From Candidatus Rokuibacteriota bacterium (GTDB lineage Bacteria; Methylomirabilota; Methylomirabilia; Rokubacteriales; CSP1-6), in assembly GCA_003220675.1 (NCBI GenBank), contig QHTD01000060.1, positions 1 to 35,528 on the forward strand: a stretch of 35,528 nt of DNA, written 5' to 3'. Below the pieces are notes generated by a model. It saw nothing but the letters and a program-made list of their open reading frames with translations. It had not been told where the DNA came from and searched no databases. Positions 6,264 through 12,290 of the stretch are shown in pieces. Made by a program: the position numbers and the translations under genes. Position 1 is the first letter of the stretch. Each line of letters starts with the position of its first letter.

Positions 6264-6430
6264 GGGCAGGTCTCCTGGCTCTCGGATCGTCCTACTCCCC
6301 GCGCCTTCCCGGCCTCGCGGCCAGTGGCTCTCCGGCGGGTTTCGTCCCCGATTACAGTGACGGGGTCGCGGCGGCCTTCAACCGCCTTCCCTGGGCCCTT
6401 CGGGGCATCCCGGGGCGCGAACAACGCGCA
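6264..6430 (-). promoter_or_regulatory. Cobalamin riboswitch upstream of cobU operon
   Basis: Minus strand reads CCAGGGAAGGCGGTTGAA...CGACCCCGTCACTGTAATCGGGGACGAAACCCGCC...AGCCACTGG...GGGAAGGCG...GAGCCAGGAGACCTGCC: recognised conserved blocks including the B12 box (6266-6280). Ends approximate. Confidence 0.95.
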
Positions 6431-7408: not shown

Positions 7409-7441
7409 TCGGAAGGGGGGCGAAGCCCCCTTCCGAGTCAG
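7409..7441. repeat. GC-rich palindrome between convergent genes, near-identical to 12306-12338
   Basis: TCGGAAGGGGGGCGAAGCCCCCTTCCGAGTCAG; no T-tract. Confidence 0.8.
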
Positions 7442-8373
7442 CTCAGCGCCTCGAGCGGGAGCCCGCGCTCCCGCCACCCCTCGAGCCCGCCCAGGAGCGG
7501 GCGGACGCGCGTCACGCCGTTACCGCGGAGCTTCATCGCCACACGGGCGCTCGTGGCCTCGTTCGGTCAGGTGCAGTAGAGGACGATGTCGTGGTCGCGC
7601 GGGATCTCCCGATGGCGCTCCTCGATCTCCTCCGCGGTGATCCGGAGCGCGCCGGGGATCGTGTACGGGTCCGCCTCGACGTCGAGCGCCGCGCGCAGGT
7701 CGACCACGACCAGGGGCTCGCCCGCGTCGAGCTTCTGCTTCAGCGTGTCGGGGCTGATCCGCGCGACGCGCAGCCGGCGGCTGACGCGCTGGCGCTGGAT
7801 GAACTTGAGCGCCACGTAGCCTACGACGACGACGATCACCGTGGCGACGAGCCAGGCGCCGAGGCGCTCGGCCCGGCCCACCACGGGCTCGAGTGCCTCG
7901 CCGGCGAGGTAGCCCACGCCCGACCAGATCCCTGTCCAGAGCAGCGCCCCCGCGCCACCGTAGAGCACGAAGCGCGCAACGCCCACGCCGAAGATCCCGG
8001 CGAGCGGCGGCGCCACGGTGCTGAGCCCGGGGACGAACTTCGCGATCAGGAGCGAGCGCGTGCCGTGGCGCGCGAAGAGGTTCTCCGTGCGCCGGACGCA
8101 CGAGTCGGGCTCGAGCGAGAGCCTGCAGAGGAGCGCGAGCACGCGGCTTCCGCGCTGGCGCCCGAGGTAGTACCAGATCAGGTCGGCCAGGAGCGAGGCG
8201 ACCGTTGCGATCACGAGCGCGAGCAGGAGATTGATGCGCCCCGTCCCCGCGAGCGCGCCCACGGCGAGCAGCGTCGGCACCGCGGGGATCGGCAGGCCCA
8301 CCTGCTCGGCGAAGACGAAGCCAAATAGCACGAGGTAGCCATACTCCGTAAGGAACTGGAGCGTATCGTGCAT
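7438..8373 (-). CDS. DedA-family membrane protein fused to C-terminal rhodanese domain, with in-frame TGA at 7567-7569 (candidate selenocysteine)
   Basis: ORF track stops at ...HDIVLYCT; translation past TGA continues PNEATSARVAMKLRGNGVTRVRPLLGGLEGWRERGLPLEALS* to a TGA stop at 7438-7440, completing a rhodanese domain. Confidence 0.8.
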
Positions 8374-8426: not shown

Positions 8427-8888
8427 TCAGGTGCCGCGCGGCTCCTCGACCTGTCGGACGCGCCGCGAGAGCGTCACGAGGATCTTTTCGGTGAGCCCCG
8501 GGACCTCCTTGAGGAGGCGCCAGAAGTGGGTGCGGTCGATGACGAGAAGCCGCAGGTCAGTCTCCGCCTTCACGGTCGCCGAGCGGGGCTCGCCGTCGAG
8601 CAGGCTCATCTCGCCGAAGAACGCGCCGGGCTGCATGCGGTGCCGCTTCTGGGGAGAGAGCGTCACGAGCGCCGTGCCGTCGATGATGACGAAGAACTCG
8701 TCGCCCGGCTCGCCCGCACGGGTGAGGACGGTGCGCTCCGGCACCTCCACGACTGTGGAGATGTCGGCCACGGCGCGGAGCTGGCGCAGGCTGCAGTCTT
8801 CGAAGAGCGGAACGCGCTCGAGGTGCGTGATTTTCTCGTCACGGGCGACGTGGAACGCGTTGAACATCTTTCCGATGAGCTCCATCAC
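8427..8888 (-). CDS. Cyclic nucleotide-binding domain protein (stand-alone CNBD)
   Basis: VPLFEDCSLRQLRAVADIS...GDEFFVIIDGTALV...GAFFGEMSLLDGEPRSATVKAETDLRLLVIDR; no HTH. Confidence 0.85.
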   Translation of the reverse strand: MMELIGKMFNAFHVARDEKITHLERVPLFEDCSLRQLRAVADISTVVEVPERTVLTRAGEPGDEFFVIIDGTALVTLSPQKRHRMQPGAFFGEMSLLDGEPRSATVKAETDLRLLVIDRTHFWRLLKEVPGLTEKILVTLSRRVRQVEEPRGT

Positions 8889-10751: not shown

Positions 10752-12290
10752 GATCCTTATACTGCATCCGTCGCGAGTCGTAGGTCAGGAGAGAGGAGAC
10801 TCGCCTGTCGAGGGGAGAAGCAGGAAGAGGAGACGCGGCGGCCGAGCATGGCGGCCAAGGGCTTGCTGACCAGAGGACCAAAACGATCGGAGCCCCCGGA
10901 GGCTCACCCCCAGAGTGTCCCGGTCGGCAAGAGAACGGCACTGAAGGTTCAAGAGAAAGTGGCCCCCCGGAGGGCCGGTATAAGGGCAACCTGCCGTTCC
11001 CGCTCCGCGGCCGCGAGCGCGGTGCCCGAAGGAGGCGGACCAGTGCGCTACCACCTCGGAGTCGATTGGGCGGATCAGACGCATGCGGTCTGGGTCGTGG
11101 ATGAGCGCGGGACCAAGATCACCGCGCGCACGGTGCCGCACACGGCGGAGGGGTTGAGCGAGTGGGGCCGGGAGCTGGACGAGTGGCGGGCGCACGGGAT
11201 CGAGCTGTGGGCGGCGATTGAGCGGCCCGAGGGCCGGGTGGTGGATTTCCTGCTCGACCATGGCATCGTGGTCTATCCCGTGAACCCCAAGGCGCTGGAC
11301 CGGGCCCGGGATCGGTTTCGGCAGAGTGGAGCGAAGGATGATCCGTTCGACGCCCGGGTGCTGGCCGACTTCCTCCGCACGGATCATGCCCACCTCCGGC
11401 CCTTGCGGCCGAGCTCGGAGGCGGCCCAAGAGCTGAAACTCCTCACGGAGGACTACCAGCGGCAAGTCCGGCAGCAGACGCGCCTAGTCAACCAGCTCAC
11501 GATCACCCTCAAGGCGTACTATCCGCGGGCCCTCGAGGTGGCGGAGTTGACGACGGGGTTGGCGCAGGCGTTCCTGCAGGCGTACCCGACGCCGGCGGCC
11601 GTGGCGGCGCTCACCGAACGTCAGTGGCAGCGGTGGGCCCGCGCGCATCGCCTGAGCGCGACCCGGACCCGGGAGCTCTGGGAGGTCCTCCAGCGACCGC
11701 AGCTGCCCGTGCCCGCCCACGTCGTGCGAGCCAAGGCCCGGTTGATGCGAAGCCTCGTGGCGCAGCTGACGCCGGTCGTAGCGGCCGTCGGGGAGTACCG
11801 GGAGGCGATCGAGGATTTTTTCGCCCGTATGTCGACCGCGCAGTGGATTCGGACGCTGCCGATCGGTGACCACGGCATCACGGCCCCGACGCTCTGGGCC
11901 CGCTTGGGCGACGCCCCCGGGCGATGGGAGGCGTTTCGGCATCTCCAGGCCCAGGCTGGAGCCGTGCCGGTGACCAAGCGGAGCGGGAAGCAGCAGCGGG
12001 TCGTGCACTTCCGCGTCGCCTGCGACAAGGCGTTGCGGTACGTGGTCGATCAGGTCGCGTTCCTCTCGCTCCGGTCGTGTGAGTGGGCCCGGGCGTACTA
12101 CGACCAGCAGCGGGGGCGGGGGCATTCTCATCGCCGGGCACTCCGGGCGTTGGGCGCGAAGTGGCTGAAGATCATCTTCGTCATGTGGCAACGCCACGCA
12201 TCCTACGACGAGCCGTACCACCTCGCGACGATGGCGCGGCAGCAGCTGCGGCAGCCGCAGACAAAAATCGCTTGATATGGACCAGAGAAA
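10752..12290 (+). mobile_element. IS110-family insertion sequence (boundaries approximate)
   Basis: Contains IS110-type transposase 11043-12275; flanks resemble two halves of the palindromic repeat found intact at 4548-4623. Confidence 0.65.
11043..12275 (+). CDS. IS110 family transposase
   Basis: DEDD-type N-terminus (YHLGVDWADQTHAVWVVD, AIERPEG, KDDPFDARVLADFLRTD) and C-terminal Tnp_20-like region with candidate serine (AGAVPVTKRSGKQQ). Start at GTG 11043; ORF-track start at 9951 is an artefact. Confidence 0.92.
   Translation: MRYHLGVDWADQTHAVWVVDERGTKITARTVPHTAEGLSEWGRELDEWRAHGIELWAAIERPEGRVVDFLLDHGIVVYPVNPKALDRARDRFRQSGAKDDPFDARVLADFLRTDHAHLRPLRPSSEAAQELKLLTEDYQRQVRQQTRLVNQLTITLKAYYPRALEVAELTTGLAQAFLQAYPTPAAVAALTERQWQRWARAHRLSATRTRELWEVLQRPQLPVPAHVVRAKARLMRSLVAQLTPVVAAVGEYREAIEDFFARMSTAQWIRTLPIGDHGITAPTLWARLGDAPGRWEAFRHLQAQAGAVPVTKRSGKQQRVVHFRVACDKALRYVVDQVAFLSLRSCEWARAYYDQQRGRGHSHRRALRALGAKWLKIIFVMWQRHASYDEPYHLATMARQQLRQPQTKIA

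Follow-up and report, generated by a model that had tools for sequence, protein, structure and literature searches.

A TGA codon within a DedA-rhodanese gene

The locus analyzed here raised the question of whether a TGA codon lying inside the gene for a membrane protein ends translation or specifies selenocysteine (Sec). In the window, i.e., the whole stretch of 35,528 nucleotides from a Candidatus Rokuibacteriota contig (QHTD01000060.1; Methylomirabilota), direct reading revealed a minus-strand open reading frame (ORF) at 8373-7567 that starts with ATG, encodes 268 amino acids, and ends ...DHDIVLYCT at TGA 7569-7567. As the first-pass annotation of this DNA had pointed out, the same frame continues beyond this codon, with 42 further codons (PNEATSARVAMKLRGNGVTRVRPLLGGLEGWRERGLPLEALS) and no other stop until TGA 7440-7438, so that the called ORF covers only 268 amino acids of a 311-residue protein. 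The complete coding sequence, with the candidate Sec at residue 269, occupies 7438-8373 on the minus strand, a length shared with its homologues.

Read-through yields a protein with two domains, both scoring above the Pfam gathering thresholds (33.9 bits for PF09335 and 22.2 bits for PF00581): a VTT/DedA domain at residues 29 to 156 (7906-8289, minus strand; PF09335, 59.3 bits, E value of 7e-16) and a rhodanese domain at residues 207 to 302 (7468-7755, minus strand; PF00581, 41.2 bits, E value of 2.4e-10), the latter containing the TGA. The proposal that read-through completes a rhodanese domain behind a DedA domain was thereby confirmed, and the C-T-U motif (C267-T-U269) likewise falls in the rhodanese active-site loop, where it had been placed. 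The sequence VLYCTU matches the LYC-x-U motif, and Cys267 (7573-7575, minus strand), the Cys of C-x-U, is invariant in 112 of 112 aligned proteins and aligns with the active-site Cys of the rhodanese structure 3tp9, i.e., it takes the catalytic position. From CxU to the following conserved Ser, the loop of the DedA-rhodanese protein exceeds that of 3tp9 by two residues. The predicted structure of a natural Cys homologue (L115; pLDDT of 84.9 and pTM of 0.72) was matched by its fold to rhodanese structures.

Conservation of the TGA codon among relatives

Across 146 genomes surrounding that of the source, almost all near-full-length relatives carry one internal TGA. Codon 269 (7567-7569, minus strand) corresponds to TGA in 48 of the 50 near-full-length relatives extracted and to TCA (Ser) and GAG (Glu) in one each, suggesting that the residue is not always needed, while the motif YC[TS]U-P-N-E-A-[TS]-S-A-R-[VA]-A-L is kept. 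The source genome itself holds three DedA-rhodanese genes with TGA, on contigs C207 (the window copy), C379, and C424. Among GTDB genomes, 80 loci were returned, and the 74 with a readable motif comprised 47 with TGA, 15 with TGC, 11 with TGT, and 1 with TCA at this column. TGA loci came from genomes labeled as Rokubacteria, NC10, Acidobacteria, Deltaproteobacteria, SAR324, and others, and Cys loci from genomes labeled mostly as Nitrospira/Nitrospirae and Verrucomicrobia, with some Acidobacteria. The Cys homologues mentioned in the first-pass annotation are real, e.g., YCTCPNEATSAR in loci L146 and L178. Moreover, a tree computed without the columns around codon 269 contains well-supported branches that force at least four switches between Sec and Cys. 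Natural loss was seen at L053 (1501-2418, genome G055) and L190, where TCA (Ser) occupies the Sec codon and the downstream hairpin described below is intact.

These data bear on whether TGA 7569-7567 is a true stop, in which case the DedA product would be cut off halfway through its rhodanese domain and the frame beyond the codon would be a relic (pseudogene). ORF callers do end the protein there, and Sec/Cys has been lost in 2 of 50 relatives, but the active-site loop after the TGA is intact, an identical TGA recurs in 48 of 50 relatives with Cys at the same column in GTDB loci, and purifying selection is stronger after the TGA than before it (dN/dS of 0.134 versus 0.213 in nine close pairs). 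Decay of the domain and unrelated stops were looked for in the relatives and were absent. Based on the comparative data, we count the pseudogene explanation as refuted and give it a very small residual probability. A sequencing or assembly error, with TGA standing for TGC or TGT, might be suspected in a MAG-like assembly (4.08 Mb in 437 contigs, 96.9% complete), but the codon is present in independent genomes and in three paralogues of the source genome; as 48 of the 50 relatives, which come from many genomes, share it, a read error is excluded, and this explanation is untenable, with a probability close to nil. Considering TGA conservation, the exchange with Cys codons, the Sec/Cys switches, and the dN/dS values together, neither a true stop, a relic, nor a read error is an adequate account of the codon.

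A conserved hairpin downstream of the TGA

A candidate SECIS hairpin was located at 7535-7551 on the minus strand, consisting of a 5' arm (7551-7546), a 5-nt loop CGUGU (7545-7541), and a 3' arm (7540-7535), which in the window copy form four consecutive pairs, separated from an outer A-U pair by a G-A mismatch. In its conserved form, AGCGCC-[CGKGY]-GGCGCU, the hairpin spans +16 to +32 after the UGA (arms at +16 to +21 and +27 to +32), and across 46 distinct sequences 273 of 276 cells were paired, compared with at most 172 of 276 when one arm was shifted by 1 to 4 nt. All six pairs were present in 80 of 82 distinct TGA sequences versus 10 of 26 Cys sequences (Fisher test, 1e-10, ignoring relatedness). 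The most synonymous-constrained of 119 codon columns were 271, 275, 276, 278, and 279, the last four being stem codons, while loop codon 277 was free to vary between CGG and CGT; in addition, a compensatory C-G to G-C change was observed in the stem of L071. With a stem of 4 to 6 bp, a 5-nt CGKGY loop, and a loop start 22 nt after the UGA, the element agrees in loop size, G position, and spacing with the published bSECIS model (PMC13188914). The exact hairpin put forward in the first-pass annotation (+10 to +15 with +24 to +29) did not hold up: it is not conserved, with only 217 of 276 cells paired versus 273 of 276, and was ruled out as the SECIS element.

Folding energies were less telling. 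The window hairpin, which with its mismatch is the second weakest of 82, gave -5.5 kcal/mol alone, and the 48-nt stretch gave -13.6 kcal/mol in another fold, while the -15.4 kcal/mol fold of paralogue L055 contains the hairpin; in the bSECIS model, the minimum free energy is at most -7.5 kcal/mol (PMC13188914). Compared with shuffled sequences, the window copy and two paralogues showed no excess stability (z-scores near zero), and thermodynamic folding, being uninformative for these three copies, was dropped in favor of conservation as the evidence for the hairpin.

Selenocysteine machinery of the source genome

The sel genes asked for in the first-pass annotation were recovered. Profile matches in the source genome identified selA (507 bits), selB (368 bits, 628 codons), and selD (337 bits), the last being a selenoprotein gene of its own (AACAGUASK, one in-frame TGA; C120:28738-29679, L214 1239-2180, minus strand). 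Of 60 genomes searched with the Rfam tRNA-Sec model, 51 had a gene above cutoff; the source genome had none above cutoff, its best matches being ordinary tRNAs. A same-genus tRNA-Sec gene, called tRNA-SeC with anticodon TCA by ARAGORN, matched the source genome at 100% identity in two halves, C1:6029-6056 and C392:1-39, with 27 nt including the anticodon falling between the two contigs, and C392 runs on from this half into selA and selB. Because both matches are perfect, lie at contig ends, and in one case adjoin selA and selB, selC is present in the source genome and is broken by the assembly. Across genomes, SelA was found in 22 of 24 TGA-form genomes (two as partial matches only) versus 7 of 26 Cys-form genomes (Fisher test, 3e-6). 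Like the Fisher test on the hairpin pairs, this one ignores relatedness; independent contrasts on the tree pointed in the expected direction and were too few for significance.

One further explanation is that a suppressor tRNA or an altered genetic code assigns Cys or Trp to the UGA, or that SelA loads sulfur, resulting in Cys in vivo. A few bacteria are known to insert Cys naturally at Sec codons, and together with the existence of Cys homologues this lends the explanation some ground. Against it stand the complete Sec machinery of the source genome, the conservation of the SECIS hairpin, and the use of UGA to close ordinary genes in the window, the DedA-rhodanese gene included, and we regard it as highly improbable. 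Read as sequence evidence, the locus argues that UGA 7569-7567 is, with very high probability, translated as Sec and that the DedA-rhodanese protein is a selenoprotein; the actual insertion of Sec at residue 269 is what we infer from these comparisons. In the proposed mechanism, SelB with Sec-tRNA(Sec) would decode the UGA, directed by the hairpin 16 to 32 nt downstream in the mRNA, and the product would be a 311-residue inner membrane protein with an N-terminal DedA/VTT membrane domain and a C-terminal rhodanese domain.

Comparison with known families

The rhodanese half is closest to NF041203 (rhodanese_LYCAU, "rhodanese-related (seleno)protein"; form 3, CxU; PMC13188914), which likewise has C-x-U after an LYC strand in a homologous rhodanese domain and matches 61 of 61 members of our alignment. 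Unlike the DedA-rhodanese protein, NF041203 has no membrane domain, its model covering 126 rhodanese positions; the score of the window protein is 88.3 bits, below the curated cutoff of 115, and among 60 relatives only two matched above the cutoff, both of them short frames (136 and 144 amino acids) with TGA. The two-domain architecture is shared with proteins named "DedA family protein/thiosulfate sulfurtransferase GlpE" (Xanthomonas sacchari WP_043095768.1), but these carry Cys in place of Sec (e.g., YCACPNE) and have no UGA; the C83/C92 motif and K112, discussed below, are also present in three plasmid-borne fusions of this name. Cys-type DedA-rhodanese fusions are already known (PMC10127716, PMC12893004), and Pseudomonas aeruginosa PA1209 has been described as DedA-rhodanese (PMC12893004). 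TsoB (rhodanese/DsbD fusion-like, NF045694, PMC13188914) is comparable, going by its inventory name, as a membrane-type fusion of a rhodanese selenoprotein, whereas its description sets it apart by a UxxxxU motif with two Sec residues and a DsbD-fusion-like rather than DedA partner. The membrane domain belongs to the family of the UptA/DedA undecaprenyl-phosphate (UndP) transporters (NF052604, 58.9 bits), but the window protein falls far under the cutoff of 250 bits, has a rhodanese domain fused to it, and has the phosphate-binding arginine pair replaced.

We found no NCBIfam model for the DedA-rhodanese fusion. The present case links selenocysteine to a membrane domain of the DedA type; the 119 families of the 2026 inventory (PMC13188914) include no DedA/VTT selenoprotein, although one may already be listed in Deng et al. 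2026 (Cell Rep 45:116760), cited in PMC13188914 for a Methylomirabilota MAG predicted to encode 63 selenoproteins. The remark in the first-pass annotation that the DedA-linked context may be less described was thus fair, given that the inventory holds the CxU rhodanese and no DedA/VTT entry. We call it a new domain architecture among known CxU rhodanese selenoproteins, one that is kept in Rokubacteria, Acidobacteriota, Deltaproteobacteria-labeled genomes, and SAR324 and is invisible in databases because annotation pipelines end these proteins partway through the active site.

Possible function of the membrane domain

Two cysteines of the DedA part, Cys83 (8125-8127, minus strand) and Cys92 (8098-8100, minus strand), lie in the motif LCRxSLEPDSCVRRTE and are conserved in 110 of 110 Sec and Cys members. 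The two members without Sec or Cys at 269 have Trp (L053) and Phe at position 92; C92 alone is missing in one of them, and both C83 and C92 are missing in the other. The pair could, as a suggestion, form a thiol relay to the C-x-U site, a link that is weakened by the presence of the same pair in several DedA-only relatives without rhodanese (L198-L200, L202, L204, L205, and L207). The pair was for the same reason ruled out as a hallmark of the rhodanese fusion, and the DedA-only subclass with two cysteines may have a redox partner in trans.

DedA proteins of COG0586 have been proposed as UndP flippases, and rhodanese fusions are on record among them (PMC10127716). In YghB, two essential arginines, Arg130 and Arg136, stand six residues apart (PMC10127716). 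Mapped onto these by spacing and homology rather than by alignment to YghB, the corresponding positions hold K112 and S/N/T/G118 in 112 of 112 fused proteins, versus R and R in 11 of 14 DedA-only relatives; on this mapping, the arginine pair of the second re-entrant helix of the COG0586 UndP flippases is absent from the fused proteins. Ordinary UndP flipping by the DedA-rhodanese protein is doubtful for this reason. The protein might still be mainly a DedA UndP flippase with the Sec-rhodanese domain serving as a redox switch on it, as DedA homology, the match of UptA models to 61 of 61 members, and the COG0586 proposal would favor; given the replaced residues in every fused protein, we consider such a role possible but unlikely.

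By the positive-inside rule, the K/R-rich stretches at residues 70 to 112 and 190 to 206 would place the rhodanese domain and the C83/C92 loop on the cytosolic side. There, C267 and U269 would most likely form a selenenylsulfide or a persulfide/selenopersulfide redox pair whose target is either a membrane-linked substrate or the protein's own conserved C83/C92 pair. Because each of the 112 fused proteins has the arginine pair replaced, we find a plain flippase less likely than a membrane-anchored thiol/selenol redox or persulfide enzyme. A bolder version, in which the protein represents a separate enzyme class whose Se-dependent redox/persulfide center gates or drives DedA-type transport, with UndP binding lost and C83/C92 acting as relay, strikes us as tentative and rather improbable. 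The natural Sec/Cys pairs, together with the two Sec-less members (Ser and Glu), offer a direct way to study the contribution of Sec and to ask if DedA-rhodanese fusions are flippases at all.

Genomic neighborhood and related rhodanese genes

The upstream neighbor on the same strand, 53 nt away at 8427-8888 (minus strand), encodes a cyclic-nucleotide-binding-like protein, named from sequence. No conserved operon was seen in the neighborhoods of 20 relatives, where the neighbors differ; judged from sequence, TolC-like genes occur in three of them and nitroreductase-like ones in two. The intrinsic-terminator consensus had no match beyond the second stop, and an inverted repeat without a T-run, GGAAGGGGGCTTCGCCCCCCTTCC, lies just past this stop at 7409-7432 between convergent genes. 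Elsewhere in the window, a cobalamin riboswitch (RF00174, 84 bits; 6268-6392, minus strand) precedes apparent cobalamin-pathway genes on the minus strand, and a plus-strand frame at approximately 11000-12275 reads like an IS110-type transposase (HLGVDWADQTHAVWVVDERG...), again named from sequence.

Other rhodanese genes with in-frame TGA were also observed, with domains of the first two loci judged from sequence. At L107 (source genome C375:79800-82200), a second architecture joins a trypsin/HtrA-like protease region and a membrane segment to a rhodanese with YCTUPDEATSAR and TGA, and its paralogue L108 (C389:2500-5800) has Ser (AGC) for Sec and a broken hairpin. In a genome of the same genus, L110 (G001 C266:14000-17500) is a second rhodanese with an in-frame TGA (YCAUPAEATAAG) located directly after the DedA-rhodanese selenoprotein gene, and a similar gene in the source genome, L109 (C437:2800-4300), encodes a stand-alone CxU rhodanese. 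The hairpins of L110 and L109 have other bases but are both fully paired, with all six pairs formed in L109.
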